From a virus: a stretch of DNA of 25,298 nucleotides. The DNA lies in the IMG/VR virus record IMGVR_UViG_3300031772_007566, positions 1 through 25,298 of that record. One strand, written 5' to 3'. A model generated the notes under the pieces. It searched no databases, was not told the DNA's origin, and was given only the letters and a program-made list of their open reading frames with translations. The position numbers were made by a program, and so were the translations under genes. Positions 192 to 15,970 of this stretch are shown one piece after another; position 1 is the first letter of the stretch, and every line of letters begins with the position of its first letter.

Positions 192-1784
192 CTAGGCCTG
201 GAACTGCAGGTCCATCATGACGATCTTGGCGGCGAGCCACGCAAAGAGCTGCGCATGGAAACAGTCATCGGGTTGAGTTGGTGCATGCCGCCACACTTTC
301 CTGCCCGAGGACGTGACCTCTTCATAGAGGTTGAGCACATCAGTGATGGGGTCCTTCATGTAGTTGATGCGCGGGTAGATGACGCCTCCCCGCTTCAACA
401 CCATGAAGTAGTTGTCCATGAGCGTAGTGCGGTCAGCACGGTAGCAATCGGCATCCTCAGCCCAAACGACGGGCTTGGCTTGCATGCCGTACGACACTTG
501 CGCTACGCGGGTACGGCCCATTGCTTGCTGAACGATCTTGTTGGGCAAGTGCCCTTCACCTCGATCACCGAGGGTCAATTCGACGTTGTACGATCTCAGG
601 ACTTCGATGATGTCTTCAACGATGGTAATGGGGTTCACTATAGGGTAGATGCGGAAGTAGAGGGTTTTCAATCGGTGATCATCGGTGACGCCAAAAATCC
701 AAATCACGGTACGGCTCACACCTTCAACGCCACCACCTGACCAATCGATGCCCGCGCACACGTGGGAGTAATGTTGCGCGTTCGTTGGGGCTGTACGGTA
801 GATGTCGTAATCTTTGCACAGGTCTTCCAGTTCTTGCTTACTAATGAGCCGTGCACCGATGGCATCGGATACGCCGAGCACTTCGTTCTTGAACTTGGTT
901 TCGCTGTACCGTTCCAACTTGTTCAAGAGTCGCTGCCAGCGTGACGGGTCTTCGTTGTTGAGGGGCAGCATGGGCTGACTGATGTGATAGCCCTTGATCT
1001 TCACCCCACCCTTGACCGGTGCATCTGACGCTACTTTCGGATCGGGATTGAAGCTGTACCAACAGCCTTCCCGAGGCTGCAGGTTCTTTCCACAACGAAG
1101 ACAGATGGGGCCGGTGAGTCCGATGGACGCGGCCGAATCGATGAAGTTCCAGTTACCACAACCAGAGCACCGCATGACCCACTCAGTCTGTGTTGAGATG
1201 GACCAAAGGTACTCGATGGTGTTCTCCATCGTCTTCGGCGTACCAGCATACGTCTCATAGCCGTACTTGGAGTTTCCCATGCACTCAATAAGTACAGGAA
1301 TAACTGCATCATACAAAACGTCCTGTACTTCATCGATGGCTAATCGATCGGCTGTATTACCACGCGCACGATCAGGGTCGTCGCAGGCGTACGTAAATTT
1401 GACTTCTGAACCGTTCTTGAACATACGGAGCATGGTGCGGGACGTGAATTCTCGCGTCGTAAAGAAACGACGAACGAGCGGAGAGTACTGCACCACTTTG
1501 GCGATACGTGTATTACTGAAGGTCTGTGTCTGTTCCTGCGAAGGCGAAACGTAAAGTGTGCGAAAGTGAGGGGTACCGATACTTTCGCTGACTGTGAAGT
1601 TGCATAGAGTTGTGCTCTTGGCTACTTGCCGAGCAGTTTTTAAGAGTAACCCTTGGTCTTTCCCGTCGTAAATAGTGGGATAGAACGGGTAATCATGCAG
1701 ACTAAAGGGTGCTCCGTCCAAAAACAATAAGCGGGTCGATAGTTCCGACCGCAACAGAGGTGGGACGTCAATGCTCACGATCAA
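192..1784 (-). CDS. terL: Phage terminase large subunit (ATPase and nuclease)
   Basis: DNA-packaging motor: an ATPase that pumps DNA into the prohead and a nuclease that cuts the concatemer. The protein is 530 aa, a normal length. The N-terminal ATPase has a Walker A-like segment TARQVAKST (residues 50-58) and Walker B RLAIDE with D151/E152. A CxxC...CxxC knuckle (C206, C209, C228, C231) sits between the domains. The C-terminal RNase H-like nuclease shows D347 in GIDWSGGG, D407 in LGDRGEGH, and D506/D507 in the PDDCFHAQLFAW segment. The start is uncertain. The frame opens after a stop at 1803-1805, and the first candidates are TTG at 1784 and GTG at 1778, neither with a clear Shine-Dalgarno. 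It is divergent from the gene at 1808, only 23 nt away. The function call is secure; the exact start is not. Confidence 0.93.
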   Translation of the reverse strand: MIVSIDVPPLLRSELSTRLLFLDGAPFSLHDYPFYPTIYDGKDQGLLLKTARQVAKSTTLCNFTVSESIGTPHFRTLYVSPSQEQTQTFSNTRIAKVVQYSPLVRRFFTTREFTSRTMLRMFKNGSEVKFTYACDDPDRARGNTADRLAIDEVQDVLYDAVIPVLIECMGNSKYGYETYAGTPKTMENTIEYLWSISTQTEWVMRCSGCGNWNFIDSAASIGLTGPICLRCGKNLQPREGCWYSFNPDPKVASDAPVKGGVKIKGYHISQPMLPLNNEDPSRWQRLLNKLERYSETKFKNEVLGVSDAIGARLISKQELEDLCKDYDIYRTAPTNAQHYSHVCAGIDWSGGGVEGVSRTVIWIFGVTDDHRLKTLYFRIYPIVNPITIVEDIIEVLRSYNVELTLGDRGEGHLPNKIVQQAMGRTRVAQVSYGMQAKPVVWAEDADCYRADRTTLMDNYFMVLKRGGVIYPRINYMKDPITDVLNLYEEVTSSGRKVWRHAPTQPDDCFHAQLFAWLAAKIVMMDLQFQA

Positions 1785-1807: not shown

Positions 1808-2248
1808 ATGCAACAGGTGAAACTGAATTTTCCGGGTACGTTAGTCCGTCCAGTCGAATTGCTGAGAGCAGGGACGCCTGTCCTACTGCACTTCGCAGCC
1901 CAAATGACGCACATTCCGGTCCTGATCGTACCGGACACCGCTATCACGTTCGTGGGCTACGAGAAGTCTTTCACGGGTGGCCCCAAGGGCACACACTGGT
2001 ACGTCACCGTTGTGGGCCTTGACAGCCGGACGTACACGTTCACGCCCAACGGGAGTTTGCACGTGGGTTACGTTCAGGAGAAGCTGCAACTCTCACACGA
2101 GGGTGATGTACGCAATCTGGTGGTACTCTTGAACGCGCTCAGTCACGAAGCAGGTCCGGAATACTACCTCTCCCACATCCCATTGCGCGATGATCATCTC
2201 GATCACGAGGCGTACGATAAGGATTCGAGTGTGCTCCATGTCCAATAA
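1808..2248 (+). CDS. Hypothetical protein upstream of the MoxR ATPase
   Basis: A 146-aa protein I do not recognise. The ATG at 1808 is preceded by AAGG at 1799-1802 and GGGGAG at 1791-1796, which supports this start over earlier in-frame codons that lie inside terL on the other strand. The N-terminal two thirds look like a beta-rich soluble domain with hydrophobic alternation and aromatic residues (FVGYEKSF, HWYVTVVGLD, YTFTPNG). The C-terminal third is helical and then acidic and His/Asp rich (RDDHLDHEAYDKD). No signal peptide or membrane segment is visible. Its 3' end overlaps the start of the MoxR gene by 11 nt, so the two are probably co-expressed and it may serve the ATPase, for example as an adaptor. 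That role is inference from position only. Confidence 0.7.
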   Translation: MQQVKLNFPGTLVRPVELLRAGTPVLLHFAAQMTHIPVLIVPDTAITFVGYEKSFTGGPKGTHWYVTVVGLDSRTYTFTPNGSLHVGYVQEKLQLSHEGDVRNLVVLLNALSHEAGPEYYLSHIPLRDDHLDHEAYDKDSSVLHVQ

Positions 2249-3653
2249 CACGCAAAAAGAAAATCAGCCCGAATCCTTCTACAGCAAACTCGGCATTCCT
2301 CTGGCCAGCGTCAAGGGCGCCAAGAACGCCATCGAGGCCAACCGCTACACGGGCAACGCTGTGTGTCTGGTTGGTGACGCTGGCATTGGAAAATCGCAAC
2401 TTGTCCGCCAGATCGCTGCCGACCGCACGCCTACGAAGCCCTTTCACTGGGATGGCCAGGACTGGAAGGAATCGCTGCCTATCAAGACGCTCTACCTGGC
2501 GCACTTTCAGGCTGAGGACATGGGTGTGCCCTACCCCAGCAGAGCCAAGCGCAACGAGCTATTACAAGAGTGTCAATTGTTCCTCAATTTGGCCACGCAC
2601 GCCAAAGAGCGGGGTGATCAGCCGCAGTACGCCAAGTACGTGAGCTATGTGAATGACCTCAGCAGCCGCATCATCGGCATGGGCTCTCCGCTTGAGGACG
2701 GCACCTTCGAGTTCCTGGTGGAGCGGTCACTCAAGGACATGCCGCAGGAGGGCATCCTCTTCCTGGATGAGTGGAACCGCGCTGAGAAGAGCACCATCAA
2801 GGCATTCTTCACCCTTCTGGAGGACCGAAGGGTACACGGAGTGCAGCTCGTTCCCGATGGCATCCAAATCGTTGCCGCGATGAATCCCAGCAACGCCGCC
2901 TACTCGGTCAACGAAGCCGAGAAGGATCACGCGTTCCGCCGTCGTCTCATCTTCGTTGCCCTCACCGTGAACGTGGGTGCCTGGCTGAACTATGCAGAGA
3001 ACAAGTTCCACCCGCTAGTGGTGGATTTCGTGAAAGCCATGCCAGACGCACTCTACGATATGCGGCTTCGGGACGCTGGTAAGGCCTTCCCCTGCCCCGC
3101 GACCTGGGAGAAGGTCTCTCTGCTCTTGCAGCGCAACGAGGAACTGAACATGGACCTCAACAGTGAGGGTGTTTACCTCTCGGTCTGTGGCATCATCGGC
3201 GAATCGCAGGGCAGTGAGTTCGTGCAGTACGTCAAGAACAACGACATCGTGATCGCTCCGATGGACCTCCTCAAGAACTACAACGAGAAGTCCAAACTGC
3301 GTGCGAAGGTGAAGCGCTTGGTCAAAGAGGCGCGTTTCGACGTCATCAAGAAGCTGTGCTCGGGCGTGGGTATCCTACTCTTCGCGCATAAGATCGACCC
3401 CGACTCGATTCGAATGCAACTCGGACTCTTCATGGGCGACTTGCCCTCAGAGATGGCTCTGGCCATGATCGAAGAGGATTTTGGCCGAGCGGCGGCTGAC
3501 ACGGAGGGAGGTGACGCCTATCTGACGCAGCTCTCCAAAACGATGGTGTCCCAGCCGGCCTATCAGGGCCTCTTCAAAACCATCGGTTCAGCGCTGAAGA
3601 AGATGGATGCTGCGGCGAAGGGGCGTACGCCCAAGGATCCCTTGGCGCCCTAG
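2238..3653 (+). CDS. MoxR-type AAA+ ATPase
   Basis: AAA+ ATPase of the MoxR/RavA-like group, chaperone-like motors that usually act with a VWA-domain partner to remodel protein complexes. In the 471-aa product the Walker A is GDAGIGKS (46-53), Walker B is GILFLDEWNRAE with D177/E178, sensor 1 is in AAMNPSN (about 214-220), and an arginine-rich FRRRL segment near 233-237 is a candidate arginine finger. Between Walker A and B lie the segment HFQAEDMGVPYP, typical of phage MoxR-like ATPases, and a charged insertion. The C-terminal ~200 aa are helical and unassigned. ATG 2238 is chosen because it keeps an 11-nt overlap with the preceding gene; the Shine-Dalgarno is weak, so coupling is likely. 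The probable partner is the VWA protein at 5444, separated by two genes on the opposite strand. Confidence 0.88.
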   Translation: MSNNTQKENQPESFYSKLGIPLASVKGAKNAIEANRYTGNAVCLVGDAGIGKSQLVRQIAADRTPTKPFHWDGQDWKESLPIKTLYLAHFQAEDMGVPYPSRAKRNELLQECQLFLNLATHAKERGDQPQYAKYVSYVNDLSSRIIGMGSPLEDGTFEFLVERSLKDMPQEGILFLDEWNRAEKSTIKAFFTLLEDRRVHGVQLVPDGIQIVAAMNPSNAAYSVNEAEKDHAFRRRLIFVALTVNVGAWLNYAENKFHPLVVDFVKAMPDALYDMRLRDAGKAFPCPATWEKVSLLLQRNEELNMDLNSEGVYLSVCGIIGESQGSEFVQYVKNNDIVIAPMDLLKNYNEKSKLRAKVKRLVKEARFDVIKKLCSGVGILLFAHKIDPDSIRMQLGLFMGDLPSEMALAMIEEDFGRAAADTEGGDAYLTQLSKTMVSQPAYQGLFKTIGSALKKMDAAAKGRTPKDPLAP

Positions 3654-5443: not shown

Positions 5444-6895
5444 ATGGACGTGACTTTGTCCGAAGCGTTCACGTACCTGGTCGCGGGGAAAAATCGAAAT
5501 TTCTATGCGAAATTGATAGCTTCGCTGATTCGGCAAGAAAGACCGGGACTCGGCACGATGGCCGTCGGTATCAATCGCGACGGCAAGTACGTGCTCTTCT
5601 ACGACCCCGAGTTCGTCCACAAGGTGGAACTCACGGAGTTGGTGCTCACCTGCATGCACGAGGTACTCCATCTCCTGTTGGGGCACATCTCTCGATTCCT
5701 CAATTTGCTGAGCGGTCTCGTCAGCGACGGAGAGAAGAAAAAGTACAAGTTGGTCATGAACCCGTCTGCCGATCTTGCCGCTAACGAACTGATGCGGCTC
5801 GAAAAGGGTTTCGATAAAGAGTACGGCGAGTACTTCTACGGCAGTGAGAAGACCGAGGGACGACTCTTCCTTACGCCCGAGAAGTACGGGCTTGAGCGCA
5901 ACTTGCCTTTTGAAGCGTACATCTTCCACATGCTGAGCCGTCTGGAAACGCACAAGCAGGACACACCAGCAGGGCAAGTGACTGTACAAGGTATGCGTGT
6001 GCCTGGAGCAGGAGGCCAGGGTGCCTCGAGCAAGAACAAGAAAGGCGGTAAAGGGAGTGGAAGTGGCGATGAGGAACCTGGACAGGGTTCTGGTTCCGGT
6101 AAAGGTCAGGAACAAGGAAACGACAAGAACGAACAATTCGTTGTGCTCGACGCTGAGTTCAATCCCCACAAGTTCTGGGAAGCCGAAACAGAGGGCATGA
6201 CCTCGGAAGAGATTCAGGGTCTCTCGGATCGGTTACAAAATGAGCTGAAGCTACTCGTCCGCAACGCGGCCAAGGGCATCAAAGGGCGGGGTACGTTGCC
6301 CTCTGATGTTGAAGAGCTGATCGATAAGATCTTGAAGACACCGACGGTGCCGTGGCCCCATCTCCTCCGCACCCTTTGTGTGCGTACCCGAGAAACAAAG
6401 GTCTCACGTGGGATGTCACGCCCCAACAGGCGCATGCACGGCATTCCGCAGATCTTGCCATTTCCCGGTCGTGACCGGGACCGCAAATTCACTATCCTCT
6501 TTGTGCTGGATACGTCTGGTTCAATGGGGGCGGAAGAACTAACGCTCGGTCTCAACGAACTCTTGAACATCGTCCAAACAGAAGAGGACGTACACCTTTG
6601 GGTGATGTACTGCGACGCCGCGTTGCAAATGACTTACGAGGTGAAGTCCATCGACGACATCAACTTCAAGGTTGCAGGACGTGGCGGCACTGATTTCAAT
6701 CCACCGTTCATCAAGTGCCGAGAGATGCTCCAATCCGGTACCGGTCCAGACATCCTCATCTACGCCACCGACGGCTACGCGCCGGCACCCGATGAGGACA
6801 ACCGCGTACCCATCCCCGTTGTCTGGTTGCTCACGCCGAATCACACGATTCCTTCACTCGATTACGGGCATCACCTTATCATGGAAAACCAATGA
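5444..6895 (+). CDS. Metallopeptidase-like and VWA-domain protein, MoxR partner
   Basis: A 483-aa two-domain protein matching the DUF2201 architecture (COG3864-type 'predicted metal-dependent peptidase' plus VWA-like domain). The N-terminal domain (about 1-175) carries HEVLHLLLGH beginning at H72, an HExxH zinc motif. A low-complexity Gly/Ser/Lys/Glu linker covers about 186-230. The C-terminal VWA domain has a complete MIDAS: DTSGSM at 356-361, T416 in GGTDF and D443 in ATDG. Proteins of this kind are typically encoded next to MoxR ATPases, where the VWA domain binds the substrate or adaptor and the ATPase remodels it; the MoxR gene at 2238 is the obvious partner. The start has AAGGAG close upstream. 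The stop overlaps the HNH start as ATGA at 6892-6895. Peptidase activity is not proven for this family. Confidence 0.87.
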   Translation: MDVTLSEAFTYLVAGKNRNFYAKLIASLIRQERPGLGTMAVGINRDGKYVLFYDPEFVHKVELTELVLTCMHEVLHLLLGHISRFLNLLSGLVSDGEKKKYKLVMNPSADLAANELMRLEKGFDKEYGEYFYGSEKTEGRLFLTPEKYGLERNLPFEAYIFHMLSRLETHKQDTPAGQVTVQGMRVPGAGGQGASSKNKKGGKGSGSGDEEPGQGSGSGKGQEQGNDKNEQFVVLDAEFNPHKFWEAETEGMTSEEIQGLSDRLQNELKLLVRNAAKGIKGRGTLPSDVEELIDKILKTPTVPWPHLLRTLCVRTRETKVSRGMSRPNRRMHGIPQILPFPGRDRDRKFTILFVLDTSGSMGAEELTLGLNELLNIVQTEEDVHLWVMYCDAALQMTYEVKSIDDINFKVAGRGGTDFNPPFIKCREMLQSGTGPDILIYATDGYAPAPDEDNRVPIPVVWLLTPNHTIPSLDYGHHLIMENQ

Positions 6896-7341
6896 AACGC
6901 ACACATGGCGAAAGTCAACGCACCCCCGAGTACGCCGTTTGGGCAAATATGATGGAACGTTGCAATAACCCTAACCACCATGATTATCCACACTATGGCG
7001 CACGAGGTATACGCGTCTGCAAACGGTGGATGAGTTACATCACTTTTCTTAAAGACATGGGACGACGTCCACCACAGATGACGCTCGAACGACTTAATAC
7101 TAACCGTAATTACACGCCAAGTAACTGTGTCTGGGCAACACGTCTCCAACAAAGTCAGAATCAACGGAGTACACGTTTCTTGACATACAAAGGAAAACGG
7201 ATGTGCCTTAGTGCTTGGGCGCGTGAACTCGGTATTAGCCCCGGTACATTACACCGTCGTTTGGCTTGTGGGTGGACCTTACAGGACACGTTCAGTTCAC
7301 AAAAACAGCGAAAAGGAAGTCGACGTGCAAACACCCATTAA
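6892..7341 (+). CDS. HNH-family homing-type endonuclease with HTH tail
   Basis: A 149-aa protein of the phage free-standing HNH endonuclease type. It shows the usual run of motifs: W-x2-M-x2-RC near 17-24, YGARGIRVCKRW at 35-46, FLKDMGRRP at 52-60, then the core LERLNTNRNYTPSNCVWAT at 65-83. The C-terminus (about 104-136) looks like a helix-turn-helix used for DNA recognition (LSAWARELGISPGTLHRRL followed by GWTLQDTF). The expected first histidine of a canonical HNH is not evident in the core, as is common in this subfamily. It starts at an ATGA overlap with the VWA gene and its 3' end overlaps the next gene by 17 nt, so it is fully embedded in the operon. Such genes usually spread by homing and need not share the operon's function. 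Confidence 0.85.
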   Translation: MKRTHGESQRTPEYAVWANMMERCNNPNHHDYPHYGARGIRVCKRWMSYITFLKDMGRRPPQMTLERLNTNRNYTPSNCVWATRLQQSQNQRSTRFLTYKGKRMCLSAWARELGISPGTLHRRLACGWTLQDTFSSQKQRKGSRRANTH

Positions 7342-7990
7342 CGCCATTTACAAGGTGAAGGTCAACCGGAGCTTCATCAGCCGGTTTCCATTCGACCTCT
7401 TCTACCTCGTACATGCGGATGTCCGCCATCTCCTTTCGCGGTTGTTCCCAGCGTCATTGTGCTTCCCCATTGAGGATGAGCTGAAAAAGCTCGTCGATAA
7501 CTTGTGGACTAAGTCCGCAGTGTACGTCTTGGACAATCACGAGGAACACAAGACCTGCGATGGCCGCATCGTTCTTACGCAAGTTGTTCAACCCAACCAG
7601 CTCGACATGTACTTCCTTGTGGTGCCAATCCTCCTCGAAAAACGCCAAGTCAAAGAGATGGGAGACGACCAACTAGGCGTAAAGGTTGTCTCGACGCACC
7701 GTAGTCCCAAGTACATCACAGCGCCGCGACACATCAAGCCAACCGAGAACAAGTTCTCCAACATCTTTTCCCACGGCACGGTGCTCTTTACACCACGAGG
7801 GCCGATGCGCCCCATCTGCTTGGCCTGTCCAAGACACCTTTTGCAACTGCAAGGGAAGTGTTCACTGGGCGGCAAGGAGTGCTACACCTGGCTAACACTA
7901 CAAGGGGATCAAGCGGCCCCACGAGAGGAGGCTGACGATGAGCAGCTATCAGGACTTGGAGCTGACGTCGATCACGCTCCCTCCGAATGA
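7325..7990 (+). CDS. Hypothetical Cys4-containing protein upstream of the RT
   Basis: A 221-aa protein I do not recognise. I chose GTG 7325 because AGGAAG at 7314-7319 lies 5 nt upstream; the frame is open further back but that part only overlaps the HNH gene. The first 120 residues look like a compact alpha/beta domain. A basic segment follows (about 123-140). Near the C-terminus are four cysteines, C165, C168, C179 and C186 (C-x2-C-x10-C-x6-C), suggesting a zinc knuckle. The last 30 residues are acidic and overlap the RT coding sequence by 53 nt. Position and overlap suggest it is co-translated with the RT, perhaps as a nucleic-acid-binding partner; that is inference. Confidence 0.7.
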   Translation: MQTPINAIYKVKVNRSFISRFPFDLFYLVHADVRHLLSRLFPASLCFPIEDELKKLVDNLWTKSAVYVLDNHEEHKTCDGRIVLTQVVQPNQLDMYFLVVPILLEKRQVKEMGDDQLGVKVVSTHRSPKYITAPRHIKPTENKFSNIFSHGTVLFTPRGPMRPICLACPRHLLQLQGKCSLGGKECYTWLTLQGDQAAPREEADDEQLSGLGADVDHAPSE

Positions 7991-9059
7991 ACTCCTACAG
8001 CAACCCATTCCGTACATCATCGATGACTTTTCGCTGGCGTTGCATTTGGGGATGCGCTGCAAGACCTTATGGTTCTGCATCCTGAAAAGAGATTCGCTGT
8101 ACAAGATCTTCTCCATTCCGAAAGCAAATGGAAAGCGCCGGCTGATCCACAACCCACACCCCGTACTGAAGTTCGTGCAACGACGCATTGACCAAGTGCT
8201 GCTCAAACCACTACCACTGCACCCCTGCGTTGGGGCGTACGTTGTGGGCAAGAGTTGCAAGGACACGGCGGCGAAGCACGTAGGGCAAGGCGTTCGCATC
8301 GGGATGGACCTGCAGGACTTCTTTCCATCCCACTCCGCATCGCGTATTCGTGGGTTCTTTCACCACTTGGGCTACTCGCACTACGTGGCTAACCTGTTGG
8401 CTACGTTGTGCACTGCCCCTTTCCGTAAGAAAAACCCAGCCGACTTTAAGGAGTTCTCGTACCGTGCCCCACAGGGATCCCCGGCTTCGCCCTCGCTGTG
8501 CAATCTCATCGCCCAGCTTGCCTTGGATCGCCTCGTTCTTCACACGTTGGGGCCGGAAGGGTGGACCTATACGCGGTATTCCGATGACTTGTGTCTGAGC
8601 CATCCAGCGGACCTATCCAAGAACGATGTCGATGCGACGCTCGAGCGTATGTACGGCCTCATCGAAGAGGCCGGGTACCGAACCAACAAGGCCAAGACAA
8701 AGGTGCAACGTCGCTGGCGACGTCAAAAGATGCTCGGCATCGTGGTGAACGAGAAAGTGTCGATACCTCGCGACGAGTATCGACGATACCGTGCGTTGTT
8801 GCACAACTGCTTGATGCAAGGGTGGGTGGTCAACTCTTTACGCTTCGGGTGGGACCCGGTCGAGACCTTCCACGACCACGTGAAAGGTAAGATCTGCTAC
8901 ATCAAGCACGTCGATTTGGCGAAGGGTGAGAAACTCGAAAAGATGTATCTGGAGGTAATTGAAAAACATGGCACAGGCGTTGACGCCAACCCTATCCAAG
9001 GTAGTCACCTACTGTCGAGCGAGCCCCTCGAAGAAGACCTTGGGCCTCCTGTTCTATAA
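7938..9059 (+). CDS. Retron-like reverse transcriptase
   Basis: RNA-dependent DNA polymerase, 373 aa. Visible RT blocks: IPKANGKRRLIHNP (fingers, about 58-71), motif A MDLQDFF with D124, motif B APQGSPASPSL with QGSP at 179-182, motif C YSDD at 214-217, and a thumb region RRQKMLGIVVN with MLG at 265-267. The order and wording are closest to retron/group II-like RTs. The retron signatures are altered: the NAxxH region reads TAAKH (110-114) and VTG reads MLG. QGSP in motif B argues against a diversity-generating retroelement RT. All catalytic aspartates are present. The start ATG has GAGGAGG just upstream. Its ends overlap the preceding gene by 53 nt and the following gene by about 92 nt. No maturase or endonuclease domain is seen. 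Confidence 0.88.
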   Translation: MSSYQDLELTSITLPPNELLQQPIPYIIDDFSLALHLGMRCKTLWFCILKRDSLYKIFSIPKANGKRRLIHNPHPVLKFVQRRIDQVLLKPLPLHPCVGAYVVGKSCKDTAAKHVGQGVRIGMDLQDFFPSHSASRIRGFFHHLGYSHYVANLLATLCTAPFRKKNPADFKEFSYRAPQGSPASPSLCNLIAQLALDRLVLHTLGPEGWTYTRYSDDLCLSHPADLSKNDVDATLERMYGLIEEAGYRTNKAKTKVQRRWRRQKMLGIVVNEKVSIPRDEYRRYRALLHNCLMQGWVVNSLRFGWDPVETFHDHVKGKICYIKHVDLAKGEKLEKMYLEVIEKHGTGVDANPIQGSHLLSSEPLEEDLGPPVL

Positions 9060-10485
9060 TGACGATGGGCACAGTGAAGAAGAACTGCGAGCCATCGTCG
9101 CGCACGATGAGGTACGAGGTCTGTTAGGGCCGACTTTTTTCGGTACTATTCTGCAATGGGGACCATCAAGCTGGTACCGCTCGCACTACTACAACCAACA
9201 CCTTACGGAATGGTTACCCAGTAACACGGGACACCGGGAAGAAGCCTATTACCTAGCGCCCCAGCTTTGGTATCCACCGACGGTGTTGCATCCCAAAACG
9301 GCGCCCATCCTCTTTCGTGCCCATGACCACATTGGTCGCTACGACACGATGGAAATGTACGTTGGCTGCATGGCGATGCAGAAGTTCATCGACTGCAGTA
9401 AGTGCGAGGACTTTGGAACAAACTGCCTTCTCGCAAACATGCCCGATCCCTTACCGCAAACAGTCATCAACAATGGACGACAGCTCTTCTTACCGGAGAT
9501 CACCAAGATTCAGTCTGATGAGTTGTGTGAAATCCATGAACAAGAAAGCGGGTTCATGGAAATCGACGACTGGGCTGAGAAACACTTTCAATCCTGGAAG
9601 TCGACCATCGCGGGTTACACGGTAATTCCCTCGGTCGCAACGGCGAACGATGCGTTACGACCGGGGGTGGTCGGTGCACGTCCTCCCTTCAAACACAGCT
9701 TCAGCGGTCTCGACCATGTGCGTGAGGAACTATCCAATCGGTCTAAGAACGGGGTGCATACACGTGAGACGCGTCGAACACAGTGCTCGAAATGCTACTT
9801 CGGGGGCACACACGGAAAACACGTCTCTACATGTGAGAAATGGGCACCACGGGCTTGTACCCACGGAGCCTGGACCGAAGAAGAGATTATCGAGACAACC
9901 ATCGTGGGGATGGAGCCCCGGCTCAAAGCGAGTGGGTTCGATCTAGAGATGCTCTGGCGTGTGAGTTTGATCGCAGGCCATAGGTTCAAGCGTGGACGAC
10001 AGCAATGGATGGTCAGTCGTATGCGCCGCATGTCTGACGGAAGTATGGCCATCGACCTTGCCCGTACGGCGCGTAAGGAGCGCGGTGAAACGCAGGGCAT
10101 CACATCCTTCGATGAGATCTACAAGACATTATCCGATGAGGAAAAAGAGAGACTGGATCGTCGTAACGAGATCGACCGACGTGAACTTGCGTTAATGATC
10201 CAGCTCTCTGTTCCAAACGCAGGCAAGGGTTATGTTTGCTACCATGAGGGGTTTGTCTACCATCAGCCCAAGATTGCCTACGCTCGACTCCAGCACAACT
10301 GGAAAGCTCAGCTCGGTATCTGGGGGCGCACATACGAACGAGACGTCAGCTTCAATACCACAGACGGTTTTGCCCGCATGGTAGACTACTTCGGCGACTT
10401 GCCGTTCTTCTCACGTCTTCGTTGGGGCGATAAAGAGTACAACGGGGAACAGTCAGGGTACCGCTTCACACACTGGGTACGTTAA
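8968..10485 (+). CDS. Hypothetical Cys-rich protein downstream of the RT
   Basis: A 505-aa protein I do not recognise. ATG 8968 is favoured because GGAGGT at 8951-8956 lies 11 nt upstream; an in-frame TTG at 8959 is too close to that site, and TTG 9040 is an alternative that would reduce the overlap with the RT to 20 nt. Two cysteine clusters are visible: C134/C143/C146/C153, and C273/C276/C289/C297 (C-x2-C-x12-C-x7-C) rich in His, both plausible metal sites. The middle and C-terminus are helical and charged, with several Trp/Tyr-rich stretches (ILQWGPSSWYRSHYYNQHL). No signal peptide or membrane span. The overlap indicates coupled expression with the RT. The function is unknown; association with the RT is inference from synteny. 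Confidence 0.75.
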   Translation: MAQALTPTLSKVVTYCRASPSKKTLGLLFYNDDGHSEEELRAIVAHDEVRGLLGPTFFGTILQWGPSSWYRSHYYNQHLTEWLPSNTGHREEAYYLAPQLWYPPTVLHPKTAPILFRAHDHIGRYDTMEMYVGCMAMQKFIDCSKCEDFGTNCLLANMPDPLPQTVINNGRQLFLPEITKIQSDELCEIHEQESGFMEIDDWAEKHFQSWKSTIAGYTVIPSVATANDALRPGVVGARPPFKHSFSGLDHVREELSNRSKNGVHTRETRRTQCSKCYFGGTHGKHVSTCEKWAPRACTHGAWTEEEIIETTIVGMEPRLKASGFDLEMLWRVSLIAGHRFKRGRQQWMVSRMRRMSDGSMAIDLARTARKERGETQGITSFDEIYKTLSDEEKERLDRRNEIDRRELALMIQLSVPNAGKGYVCYHEGFVYHQPKIAYARLQHNWKAQLGIWGRTYERDVSFNTTDGFARMVDYFGDLPFFSRLRWGDKEYNGEQSGYRFTHWVR

Positions 10486-11597
10486 GTCGTCGTACTCGAC
10501 CCAACCAGCGGATCCGTAGGTGTCCAGGTGGGCTTCAACGCACGAACAGCGGCGAGGGCGGCCTCGGTAGCCATTTGAGCACTCTCATAGGCTGCCTGGG
10601 CGCTCTCGTACGCTGTTCGTGCGTTGGCCACCGCTGTATCAGCGGTTGTTTTAGCTGTCTGGGCTGTATTCAGCTCGGTTTGGCGCGTCGCGCAGAATGC
10701 GGCGAAGAGCGCTTGATTGGCAACAGCGGTGTTCTTGACGACTTCGGCGGTAGCGACATCTCCACGGAACGTGAGGATGTCCGTGTCCATTGCACCAAGC
10801 TGACTGTTGTACGTTGTGACTGCTGAATCGTATGTTGCTTTTTGTCCAGCGGTAGGTGGATCAGCTGTGCAAGCACTACGGAGTGCATCAGCAGCGGTTC
10901 GGAAGGTTTTGGACTGTGTAAGAAAGAGCCCCGCACCAGTTCCAGTTGCGCCGAAAGCATTTGATTTGGTGTACAGCGTAGAGAAGCCAGCGAGGCAAGC
11001 ATCGAAGTAGCCCTTCGCTGTAACGCAATCGTTGTACAGTGTTTGAGCGCTAGTGACACCACTGGTGGCGTCTGATGCATCCGTTACGGCAGTATCGTAT
11101 GCGCTCTTGGCGTCGTCGCGCGCAATGAACATTACCGCTTCGGACTTCGCAGCGGCGTCATACGCATCGACCAGCGTGTTGAAGGTATCGAGACCGGTGC
11201 GAGGATGCTCTGTGGTTTCAGTGGTGGCTTCGAACTCGGTATCGTACATCTCCCATTCAGTGACCATCTCGTCGATGCGCGTTTTCAGTACGTCCGTCGC
11301 ACTAACGGCGGTTGGGAGATCGTCGTAATAAAACACCCAAGAATCGATGCGATAGAACTCTTCGTGATCCAACACGGCTTGCGCGCGGTCTTCGCCAAAC
11401 GTAGAAAAATCAGGAACGGCAACTACGCGGCCAAACGTATCCGCTTTTGGATCATCGGGATCATTGATCTGGATACAGAAGATGGCCTTTGTGGGAAGAG
11501 GGCCTTGTTCTGTGGTCCAGATAGTGATCTTGAACTGAGTCTTGCCATCAACAACGACGGCTTCACGGGTCTGTTGGGTAGTTGCGACAGTCGCCAT
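10482..11597 (-). CDS. Virion-type protein: shared module plus Ala-rich coiled coil
   Basis: A 371-aa protein, third of a tight minus-strand operon (2-nt gap after the 129-aa gene). Residues 1 to about 125 resemble the two neighbouring proteins: MATVATTQQTR at the start, an AIFCIQI strand, RVVAVPDF, and a helix with DDLPTAVSATDVLKTRIDEM and YDTEFE. From about 140 to 350 it becomes a long Ala/Thr/Ser-rich helical region with heptad-like repeats (TAYESAQAAYESAQ), typical of phage fibre, tape-like or neck components. It contains few cysteines and no membrane span. I read it as a structural protein; the exact place in the virion is unknown. Its stop overlaps the stop of the 505-aa plus-strand gene by 4 nt. 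Confidence 0.75.
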   Translation of the reverse strand: MATVATTQQTREAVVVDGKTQFKITIWTTEQGPLPTKAIFCIQINDPDDPKADTFGRVVAVPDFSTFGEDRAQAVLDHEEFYRIDSWVFYYDDLPTAVSATDVLKTRIDEMVTEWEMYDTEFEATTETTEHPRTGLDTFNTLVDAYDAAAKSEAVMFIARDDAKSAYDTAVTDASDATSGVTSAQTLYNDCVTAKGYFDACLAGFSTLYTKSNAFGATGTGAGLFLTQSKTFRTAADALRSACTADPPTAGQKATYDSAVTTYNSQLGAMDTDILTFRGDVATAEVVKNTAVANQALFAAFCATRQTELNTAQTAKTTADTAVANARTAYESAQAAYESAQMATEAALAAVRALKPTWTPTDPLVGSSTTT

Positions 11598-12694: not shown

Positions 12695-13249
12695 ATGCCC
12701 GTGTACGTAGGCGTCGACCAGGCGCTTCGAAAGATAGGCGTTTGCGTGCTGCAGGGTGACGAGGCGGTCGACTTGAAGCTCGTCCTACCTCCGTCCGACC
12801 TCCGGGGACCTGAGCGTCTACAGTACCTTCGCGACGCTCTTTGGAACTACCTCTCACCCCACAAAGGCAAGACCACCAAGTGCGCCATGGAAGCGCAGTC
12901 ACTCGGGTCTCTAGGAGATCTCGACCAGCTCGGACAGATAAACGGCGTTGTTCAAGTTCTCCTCAGTGACCTCGGCGCTACACCCCTTCTTGTTGCTCCC
13001 GCCCTTTTGAAGAAATTCGTCACAGGCCAAGGCCAAGCAACCAAGCAGGCCATGATGGTCGCAACCCATAAACACTGGAATGTGCAAATCGTTCAAGACG
13101 ACCTCTGTGATGCGCACGGCCTCGCACGTCTGGCCAAAGAATATACAGAGAATACCTCCACCAATCGCGCACAGATCGAAGTCATTCATCGCCTGTCCCA
13201 TAGTCGAAAGAAGGCGCGCATCAAGCGTCTCTTTCCCAACGCCCTCTAG
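12695..13249 (+). CDS. RuvC-like Holliday junction resolvase
   Basis: A 184-aa RNase H-fold endonuclease of the RuvC family, which cuts four-way junctions during recombination or before packaging. The N-terminal strand GVDQALRKIGVCVL carries the first catalytic acid D8. E66 in the AMEAQSLGSLG strand is the second. LLKKFVTGQGQATK (104-117) matches the RuvC loop seen as PxxxKKxxTGxGxAxK. D136 and D139 in DDLCDAHGLA supply the last acidic pair. Length is close to bacterial RuvC. The Shine-Dalgarno is weak (AGAGA). The RNR gene follows after 15 nt, so the two are probably co-transcribed. In phages RuvC-like enzymes commonly debranch replication intermediates for the terminase. Confidence 0.85.
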   Translation: MPVYVGVDQALRKIGVCVLQGDEAVDLKLVLPPSDLRGPERLQYLRDALWNYLSPHKGKTTKCAMEAQSLGSLGDLDQLGQINGVVQVLLSDLGATPLLVAPALLKKFVTGQGQATKQAMMVATHKHWNVQIVQDDLCDAHGLARLAKEYTENTSTNRAQIEVIHRLSHSRKKARIKRLFPNAL

Positions 13250-13264: not shown

Positions 13265-15970
13265 ATGGAGTCCACGAGGCCTTCCAGCAATGGGATTATT
13301 ACGCTCAATACAGCGGCACAGCCTATAGAAGCGGCGCAGCCCGTATCAACACGGCTGACGTATTCGTCGTATTTCTGTCCTGAAAACGTCGATCCTTTCA
13401 CGCAAGTCAGTTGGCGCCTGATCGATGTCGTGCTCAAAGATGGCGAGGGGAACGTCATCTTCGAACAAGCGGGCGTCGAAGCACCGGTACGTTGGTCCGA
13501 ACGAGCTGTTCGTATCGTGGCGCAGAAGTATTTTCGCGGTCGCCTCGGTACACCGGAACGTGAGTACAGCGTCAAACAGATCATCAAGCGGGTTGTGGGT
13601 ACGATCTACGAATGGGCAATGGTGCAGGGTTATTTTGAAACACCGAAGGATGCCCAGCGCTTCTACAACGACCTTGTTGTTTTGCTGCTCGAACAAAAAG
13701 GGTCATTCAACTCGCCCGTGTGGTTCAACCTCGGCGTCAAAGACACGCTCCCTCAGGTCAGTGCGTGTTTCATCCAATCGGTCGAAGACAACATGCAGTC
13801 CATCGCCGAGCTGCAGATGGGTGAGACACTCATCTTCAAACGAGGATCCGGTACTGGTACGAACTTTTCGAGCTTGCGATCACGGAAAGAGCACCTGGCA
13901 GGTGGGGGTACCGCGTCGGGTCCGGTGTCCTTCATGCGGGGTCTGGACGCGTGGGCTGGGGTCATCAAATCAGGCGGCAAAACACGCCGTGCTGCCAAGA
14001 TGGCTATCCTGAACATCGACCACCCGGACATCCTCGAGTTCATCGAGTGCAAGCTCAAGGAAGAGGAGCGAGCACAGGAACTAGCGAAAGCAGGGTACTC
14101 CACGGACTTTGATGACGCTAACGGTGCTTACGCTTCGGTGTGTTTCCAGAACGCGAATCACGCCATCCGCGTACCGGATGAGTTCATGAACGCTGTCCAA
14201 CTTGCGATGGAGAACCCCTCGCTAGACCCGCTGTGGGAGTTGCGGGCACGCACTACAGGAGAAGTCATCGACCGTGTGCCGGTACGAACCCTCTGGAACA
14301 AGATCTGCGAGGCGTCGTACATCTGCGGTGACCCAGGTATGCAGTTCGATACGACCACTAACAAGTGGCACACTTGCCCCAGCGATGGACGAATCAACGC
14401 TACAAACCCCTGCTCAGAATTCGCATTTCTAGACGATACGTCGTGCAACCTCGCTAGTTTGAACCTCATGGCTTTCACAGGAAATGCATCTACGGATATT
14501 TTCAACACCGAAGACTTCCAGAAAGCAGTCAGCGTGTTCATCATTGCGCAGGACGCCATGGTCTCACAGGCGTTCTACCCCACGGAGCGCATCGCTGCGG
14601 CCACCAAGAAGTACCGTGCCCTTGGCCTCGGTTTCACGAACCTGGGTGCCTTCCTGATGGCGCAGGGTCTTGCATACGATAGTGATGCTGCACGCAGCAT
14701 CACCTCCGAGATCACGTCGCTCATGACTGCGACAGCGTACCTCACCTCGGCCAAGATCGCGGCTGTGCTTGGCCCCTTCGAAGCCTACGAGCGCAATCGT
14801 CCCGCCATGGAACGTGTGATCAAGCAGCACCGGGATGAAGCCTACCGGCACCGCTTGCAATCCGTGGATGTCTGGGACCGTGCTATCACAGTGGGAGAGG
14901 TCTGTGGTTACCGCAATGCGCAGACCACTCTGATCGCCCCAACTGGCACCATCAGTTTCATGATGGATTGCGACACCACGGGCTGCGAGCCTGAGATCAG
15001 TCTTTACAAGGTAAAGAAACTGGTTGGCGGAGGCTCGGTTGTACTGGAAAACCGCATTGTTGATCAGGCGCTAAAGGCGCTGGGGTACAACGAAACAGAG
15101 CGGGAGGGGATGCTTCGCTACCTCGGAGAAAACAAGACCCTGGAGGGTTGTTCCTGGCTCCGTTCACAGCATTGGCCGGTGTTCGATTGTGCGGTGCCTT
15201 CAGCGGGGAAAAGAATCCTGTCGCTGCCAGCACATCTCGACATGATGATGGCTATTCAGCCCTTCATCTCGGGAGCCATCTCGAAGACCGTGAACATGGC
15301 GGCGAGCGCTACCGCTGAAGACATCGGCAAAGCGTTCTTCAATGCGTGGTTGAACGGTATCAAGAACATCATCGTCTACCGTAACAGGTCCAAGCTCAGT
15401 CAGCCCATCGAGTCCAAGAAAGCGCCCGCAGCCACTTTCGTCGCCGATCCCACACCAGTGCGGCGCAAGCTGCGTGATCATCAGAACAACTGCCACCGCA
15501 TCAAGATCGAGTTCGGGCAGATGGAGGGGTATCTAGTAGTTACCCCGTACGAGGACACTGGAATGCCCGGCGAGATCTTCGTCGTACTCTCCAAGGAAGG
15601 CTCGACCATCAGCGGGCTCGTCGATGGATGGGCCACAGGGGTTTCATTATGTTTGCAGTATGGTGTCCCTCTCGAGAAGCTGGTAGACAAATTCAGTCAC
15701 GCCAAGTTCGAACCATCAGGTTTCTCGTCTGACCCTGATATTCGACATGCATCGAGCATCTACGATGCCATCATCCGTAAGCTGGCCGCAGTGTTTATCT
15801 TGCAAGATGTGAAACCCGCGTCTATCGAAGAGATCAACTTCGAGAAACCGTTTACAGTGGTAGATGTTATGGCACGTCCAATCTGCACGGTCTGTGGTAG
15901 TATTACACAACAGAATGGCGCAACTTGTTACGTGTGCCCCGTTTGCGGTAACGGGACAGGCTGCAGCTAG
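13265..15970 (+). CDS. nrdJ: Adenosylcobalamin-dependent ribonucleotide reductase (class II)
   Basis: Reduces ribonucleotides to deoxyribonucleotides using a B12-derived radical, so it works with or without oxygen and needs no small subunit. The 901-aa protein is a single-chain NrdJ. Visible marks: C168 in VSACFIQS (redox cysteine), GTGTNFSSLRSRKEHLAGGG (about 196-215), NPCSE at 381-385 with the radical cysteine C383, C394 in TSCNLASLNL, APTGTISFMMDCDTTG from 558, and KKLVGGG. The C-terminus holds a cysteine-rich tail (C874, C877, C889 onward to the final GCS), a likely redox shuttle or zinc ribbon. AGGAG at 13255-13259 supports ATG 13265. No frameshift, intron or intein is seen. It supplies dNTPs for phage replication; the host must provide or salvage cobalamin. 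Confidence 0.95.
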   Translation: MESTRPSSNGIITLNTAAQPIEAAQPVSTRLTYSSYFCPENVDPFTQVSWRLIDVVLKDGEGNVIFEQAGVEAPVRWSERAVRIVAQKYFRGRLGTPEREYSVKQIIKRVVGTIYEWAMVQGYFETPKDAQRFYNDLVVLLLEQKGSFNSPVWFNLGVKDTLPQVSACFIQSVEDNMQSIAELQMGETLIFKRGSGTGTNFSSLRSRKEHLAGGGTASGPVSFMRGLDAWAGVIKSGGKTRRAAKMAILNIDHPDILEFIECKLKEEERAQELAKAGYSTDFDDANGAYASVCFQNANHAIRVPDEFMNAVQLAMENPSLDPLWELRARTTGEVIDRVPVRTLWNKICEASYICGDPGMQFDTTTNKWHTCPSDGRINATNPCSEFAFLDDTSCNLASLNLMAFTGNASTDIFNTEDFQKAVSVFIIAQDAMVSQAFYPTERIAAATKKYRALGLGFTNLGAFLMAQGLAYDSDAARSITSEITSLMTATAYLTSAKIAAVLGPFEAYERNRPAMERVIKQHRDEAYRHRLQSVDVWDRAITVGEVCGYRNAQTTLIAPTGTISFMMDCDTTGCEPEISLYKVKKLVGGGSVVLENRIVDQALKALGYNETEREGMLRYLGENKTLEGCSWLRSQHWPVFDCAVPSAGKRILSLPAHLDMMMAIQPFISGAISKTVNMAASATAEDIGKAFFNAWLNGIKNIIVYRNRSKLSQPIESKKAPAATFVADPTPVRRKLRDHQNNCHRIKIEFGQMEGYLVVTPYEDTGMPGEIFVVLSKEGSTISGLVDGWATGVSLCLQYGVPLEKLVDKFSHAKFEPSGFSSDPDIRHASSIYDAIIRKLAAVFILQDVKPASIEEINFEKPFTVVDVMARPICTVCGSITQQNGATCYVCPVCGNGTGCS

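Follow-up and report, generated by a model that had tools for sequence, protein, structure and literature searches.

The 25,298-bp viral record IMGVR_UViG_3300031772_007566, which derives from a large tailed phage and is considered here over its whole length (the window), harbours a cassette of three overlapping plus-strand genes centred on a retron-like reverse transcriptase (RT). The RT gene (7938–9059; 373 aa) is preceded by UP (7325–7990; 221 aa) and followed by DOWN (8968–10485; 505 aa), both of which encode proteins of no known family. UP starts with GTG at 7325, with an AGGAAG site ahead, and overlaps the RT gene by 53 nt; DOWN starts with ATG at 8968, the RT/DOWN overlap amounting to 92 nt. 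These coordinates and overlaps agree with an initial annotation of the sequence, which had overlooked that the conserved block extends back from the cassette to the genes for a vWA protein (VWA, 5444–6895) and a MoxR-type ATPase (MoxR, 2190–3653). The cassette represents near-core, vertically inherited genes in a lineage of large uncultured phages, and there is hardly any doubt that UP, RT and DOWN form a conserved overlapping unit.

Synteny and inheritance of the cassette

When viral contigs were scanned with RT, UP or DOWN as single proteins, no matches were obtained; a scan of IMG/VR with an RT alignment recovered 80 loci. In this RT-recruited sample, UP homologues are located directly 5' of the RT gene in 53 loci and DOWN homologues directly 3' in about 48 viral loci. 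The co-occurrence of the three genes in other phages, a point raised in the initial annotation, was thereby confirmed, UP and DOWN being conserved beside RT homologues. Gene order is near-fixed in about 50 loci: TerL (minus strand), MoxR (plus), o3653 and o4384 (both minus), VWA, UP, RT and DOWN (all plus), tail-type genes (minus), and the genes for RuvC and a ribonucleotide reductase-like protein (both plus).

To avoid recruitment by the RT itself, a second sample was assembled with o4384, a flanking minus-strand gene of virion type that is distantly related to gp242 (annotated as structural) of Salmonella phage Arash. From the 61 loci obtained, 18 that end too early and one marginal match (L231) were set aside, and UP, RT, DOWN, MoxR and VWA are all present in 38 of the 42 scored loci of the lineage. 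The four exceptions are L208, L229, L215 and L230. The last two contain none of the five genes: o4384 and the tail-type gene are separated by only about 50 nt in L230, and no match to RT, MoxR, VWA, UP or DOWN was detected anywhere in the 191-kb record of L215. A first tree pointed to one joint loss of the five genes in a common ancestor, a reading abandoned after placement of the two phages proved weak (0.49–0.69) with more outgroups; the genes may have been lost there or never been present.

For each of RT, UP and DOWN, pairwise distances follow those of TerL (r = 0.88, 0.76 and 0.80, respectively) and of o4384 (r = 0.89, 0.81 and 0.86), and across all five proteins, VWA and MoxR included, correlation with TerL ranges from 0.76 to 0.90. 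The cassette is therefore inherited vertically with the phage. MoxR is present in every locus of the lineage that has the cassette and enough flanking sequence; within the lineage, the RT comes with MoxR and VWA, which in turn also occur without it. UP, RT and DOWN are missing together in L244/L245 (see below) and, along with MoxR and VWA, in L215/L230; the three genes are thus gained and lost as one block. In the outgroup phage G024, the surroundings of o3653/o4384 contain MoxR, VWA and a gene resembling UP (E = 1.7e-4, with CxxC retained), and the RT gene is located about 13 kb off beside TerL. Downstream of VWA, the outgroup phage encodes this UP-like protein and then another two that are rich in Cys (L232:2559–4586).

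The MoxR-type AAA+ ATPase of the window (open reading frame (ORF) 2190–3653, plus strand; Pfam AAA_5, 5e-12; phrog_1297, 9e-43) probably starts at the ATG at 2238. VWA (plus strand) is a DUF2201-type protein (Pfam DUF2201_N, 4e-19; DUF2201, 7e-11) combining an N-terminal HExxH metallopeptidase-like part with a C-terminal vWA domain with DxSGS; its residues H72, E73, H76, D356, S358 and S360 are invariant in 38 sequences. Between VWA and UP, the window contains a plus-strand gene for an HNH endonuclease (6892–7341; phrog_3377, 5e-48) that overlaps UP by 17 nt. This gene is an insertion outside the system, VWA directly adjoining UP in most other loci. Flanking features comprise TerL (terminase; 192–1784, minus strand), a convergent tail-type gene with an Ala-rich end (10482–11597, minus strand), a RuvC-like resolvase gene (12695–13249, plus strand; phrog_159) and a gene assigned from its own sequence as ribonucleotide reductase-like (13265–15970, plus strand); the ribonucleotide reductase-like gene of L047 (9363–12980) appears to contain an intein.

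MoxR and vWA genes were also observed beside other RTs. A distinct phage type (L254:3454–9422) combines, in one gene run, MoxR and VWA with two Cys-rich proteins and an RT whose NAxxH and VTG motifs are canonical, possibly an independent version of the system. In L066 (1909–6807) and L076 (2099–6861), a canonical retron-like RT gene lies about 1.3 kb downstream of MoxR and vWA genes; it is preceded by a gap of about 350 nt (space for a non-coding RNA (ncRNA)) and followed by an overlapping gene for a 154-aa protein.

The reverse transcriptase and its partner proteins

The catalytic motifs of the window RT are intact (D124; QGSP, 179–182; YSDD, 214–217), and TAAKH (110–114) and MLG (265–267) replace NAxxH and VTG, as initially annotated. 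D124 and YxDD are kept in 47 of 47 RTs checked, at a median identity of 37 %. The Asn of NAxxH is found in none of these 47 RTs, which have Ala, Ser or Thr instead, and in 60 of 80 cellular relatives, His114 being present in all 47. Likewise, xLG takes the place of VTG in all 45 RTs with letters at this site, VTG being found in 64 of the 80 cellular relatives. Judged from these alignments, the altered motifs are a trait of the whole clade and not of the window RT alone.

Among PADLOC models, RT_XIII matched the window RT best (1.8e-80, 269 bits), with other retron models close behind; Pfam RVT_1 (9.5e-16) and phrog_2825 (5e-50) were also matched. Models of DRT and group II RTs were far weaker, Drt2 (9.5e-7) being the only match among DRT, Abi and UG models, and the top matches in both PADLOC and PDB are all retron RTs. 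RT_XIII is also the best model for most cassette RTs (139–269 bits). Phylogenetic analysis of 157 RTs united the cassette RTs with those of L047 and L229 in a monophyletic group (support 0.96), followed outward by the phage RT of L062, then those of L056 and L061, and then cellular RTs. Outgroups were sampled cellular RTs only, with no DRT or intron RTs, and it is on these that placement outside the retrons rests. Relative to the sampled cellular retron RTs, the cassette RTs thus appear as an outlying phage clade, with no known ncRNA or effector. The RTs of L056 (5653–6999) and L061 (5650–6939) carry an N-terminal Cys-rich extension with several CxxC motifs, for which an interpretation as fused UP received no support from profile comparison. 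In L229 (5623–6855), the RT gene occupies the same site beside o4384 and is overlapped by an upstream gene of unrecognised family.

UP possesses a single four-cysteine cluster, C-x2-C-x10-C-x6-C (C165, C168, C179 and C186; 7817–7882), which is invariant in 45 homologues. The initial annotation had assigned one such cluster to each flanking protein, which holds for UP; DOWN has two, the overlooked first one being C134-x8-C143-x2-C146-x6-C153 (9367–9426). Its C134, C146 and C153 occur in all 44 aligned homologues and C143 in 86 %, and the second cluster, C273-x2-C276-x12-C289-x7-C297 (9784–9858), is kept in 95–98 % of aligned homologues. Because these cysteines are invariant, UP and DOWN are predicted to bind metal (Zn or Fe-S) via their Cys4 clusters.

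Both proteins proved as unrecognised as first described. UP had no match in Pfam, PHROGs, NCBIfam, PADLOC or PDB profiles; the DOWN protein of the window had no significant match in Pfam, PHROGs, NCBIfam or PADLOC and no convincing match to a solved structure. The same four family collections provided no convincing family for aligned members either (43 UP, 39 DOWN), weak matches of three DOWN members to DDE_Tnp_1_6 reaching 7e-4 at best. Folds predicted by AlphaFold2 (pLDDT 80.7 for UP and 75.1 for DOWN) had no match in PDB at E<=0.001, and that of DOWN none among viral models. Profile matches of DOWN to TAL-effector repeats in PDB were dismissed as a repeat artefact, no single stretch being above threshold. 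Homologues share 15–36 % (UP) and 11–30 % (DOWN) identity with the window proteins. Two marginal matches of DOWN (57–66 aa) were found in Chitinophaga contigs, and neither UP nor DOWN was matched in the two bacterial genomes tried.

With type XIII retrons (PADLOC RT_XIII; myxobacterial and other bacterial RTs), the cassette shares the best model for its RT. In contrast, a Polyangium RT (L089) scored 474 bits with this model, above the range of the cassette RTs, and the cassette lacks matched RT_XIII partners (UP and DOWN without PADLOC match), an ncRNA, NAxxH and VTG. The structurally solved RTs of retrons Ec86 and Ec67 have the RT domain in common with the window RT (2e-30 and 5e-21), but differ in clade, partners and gene order, and the cassette lacks their msr-msd. 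The vWA-MoxR ternary conflict systems (Kaur et al. 2020, PMC7159879) likewise combine a MoxR AAA+/vWA pair with further dedicated proteins; here, however, the pair is accompanied by an RT and two Cys-rich proteins, and all are phage-borne. No VMAP, iSTAND, FtsH or beta-propeller domain was matched in UP or DOWN with Pfam, a scan that covered only part of the genes beyond the block. Many other phages have MoxR-vWA pairs of the same two families (phrog_1297 with phrog_1314), most of them without an RT cassette. Among cultured phages, Salmonella phage Arash and Vibrio phage D181 are nearest by TerL (31 %) and encode homologues of the two minus-strand genes flanking the cassette (gp242 and gp243 in Arash), but no MoxR, VWA, UP, RT or DOWN in the stretch searched. 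An RT search of the phage collection yielded no match, and no description of such a cassette was found in the open-licence literature. While the RT family is known, the arrangement and the partners are new, and the appropriate name for the cassette is retron-like phage RT system rather than retron. This supports the earlier suggestion of a phage-borne RT system outside the described retron types, with two co-occurring Cys4 partners.

Search for a template RNA

No ncRNA was detected in cis beside the genes by Rfam search, gap survey, folding scan or analysis of synonymous constraint. In most loci, almost no free space exists between VWA, UP, RT, DOWN and the convergent gene, and the VWA–UP gap, where present, is mostly filled by further ORFs. 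In a rough test, a coding frame spans the 240 nt upstream of the RT gene in 43 of 47 cassette loci, compared to 26 of 79 cellular and 1 of 19 other viral RTs. Only within the gene overlaps is synonymous identity in 17 pairs higher (+0.10 to +0.20); outside them it is flat. Gene overlaps, upstream coding sequence and flat synonymous sites jointly bear out that no msr-msd precedes the RT gene; there is room for an RNA encoded elsewhere in the genome as template.

The strongest structure in the folding scan is a very stable hairpin with 16-nt perfect arms (10536–10626, plus strand; z about −8 to −11 in 150-nt windows and −6.3 over 251 nt), which the initial annotation had overlooked and which lies within the end of the convergent gene. 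It was first considered a candidate template, namely an msd-like element in the 3' end of the operon, antisense to the tail-type gene. Its exceptional stability speaks for such a role, as does the low-z structure that many homologous loci have close to the stop codon of DOWN; the role is nevertheless quite improbable: the region overlaps the Ala-rich end of the convergent gene, and its sequence and shape vary from locus to locus. Moreover, an intrinsic-terminator-like stem and T-run, located at 10630–10646 (plus strand) after DOWN in the window, is found at the matching place in 16 of 40 homologous loci versus 10 of 200 control stretches, as expected for a terminator between convergent genes. 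The candidate was demoted on these grounds, and the simpler reading is that the hairpin is part of a terminator region.

Possible function and its alternatives

The interpretation proposed here, which we regard as having about an even chance of being correct, is that the cassette constitutes a vertically inherited phage machine, in which MoxR-vWA would mature an RT/Cys-protein complex copying an RNA in trans for the phage's own benefit. UP and DOWN, with their predicted metal-binding Cys4 clusters, would join the RT in a complex. According to the literature (PMC7159879), MoxR-vWA pairs assemble complexes and help to insert metal clusters; the present pair may act as chaperone and co-chaperone in assembling or activating the RT/UP/DOWN metalloprotein complex, as MoxR/Cox-type pairs do for metal-cluster proteins. 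During infection, the RT would use a transcript of phage or host origin, or an ncRNA from another part of the genome, as template for DNA, and the product would serve the phage itself (in replication, repair or host takeover) rather than constitute transferable defence cargo. That MoxR-vWA serves the RT complex is a balanced proposition, whereas a role for the phage itself rather than in defence seems somewhat favoured. Only tentatively, and as less than probable, do we suggest the complete description of a phage-specific RT with two new metal-binding families, a MoxR-vWA chaperone and a trans-supplied RNA, distinct from retrons, diversity-generating retroelements (DGRs), DRTs and group II introns.

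In favour of the proposal stand the fixed synteny, the distances correlated with TerL and o4384, the joint absences of the three genes, the retained D124 and YxDD, the flat synonymous sites outside overlaps and, as a separate case, the gene run of L254. Several observations weigh against it. MoxR-vWA pairs are frequent in phages without any RT, and their tie to the cassette RT could therefore be looser than proposed. A VWA-based scan added two phages of the lineage (L244 and L245) that have MoxR and VWA but another gene at the cassette site, in L244 (9614–10804) encoding a 397-aa protein which we take to be DUF932-like. DOWN was undetected in L047 and L208; the divergent outgroup L229 has only the RT, with YSDN instead of YxDD, and neither MoxR nor VWA in its 44-kb fragment. 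Finally, homology of the two Cys-rich L254 proteins to UP and DOWN could not be established.

A phage-borne retron-type defence acting in superinfection exclusion would require msDNA made from an ncRNA located elsewhere or unrecognised, with DOWN and/or UP as effector or sensor. Known retron systems consist of an RT and associated proteins, the cassette RT is closest to retron RTs, and conflict systems with vWA-MoxR modules have been described (PMC7159879). Against this stand the replacement of both NAxxH and VTG across the clade, the absence of an Rfam RNA and of either space or synonymous constraint for an ncRNA in cis, and the lack of PADLOC matches for UP and DOWN. Defence cargo is usually patchy in distribution, and the cassette is near-core and vertical. 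We consider such a defence role unlikely, if still of some weight; for anti-host defence or inter-phage exclusion, as initially suggested, no direct evidence was obtained, and near-core vertical inheritance argues against accessory defence cargo. DNA synthesis that lacks a dedicated template or is primed by protein, as in Abi/DRT polymerases, with UP or DOWN as primer protein or regulator, would agree with the absence of a cis template, and the genes fixed beside the RT could provide a primer protein. This is improbable, given the sequence distance from DRT/Abi models (Drt2 9.5e-7 versus RT_XIII 1.8e-80) and the retention of canonical QG and YxDD motifs in nearly all RTs. A DGR mutating the adjacent convergent tail-type gene hardly comes into consideration. 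The RT does adjoin this gene in nearly all loci, but it falls on the retron side and carries QG[AS]P, which is not the motif of DGR-type RTs. DGRs are known to act on phage tail genes (PMC8867640); in the 25-kb window, however, no pair of template and variable repeats was found, the sole direct repeat of at least 35 nt (36 nt, 72 %) residing in unrelated genes, which largely excludes this reading within the window.

Apart from those of introns and DGRs, bacterial RTs have mainly become known through anti-phage defence. The retron-like RT described here shares its inheritance with the terminase, retains its catalytic residues throughout a deep phage lineage and is linked to two new protein families and to MoxR-vWA. 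Should it work for the phage, tailed DNA phages would prove to possess their own reverse-transcription step, and the role of a retron-like RT without a neighbouring template would become a directly testable question.

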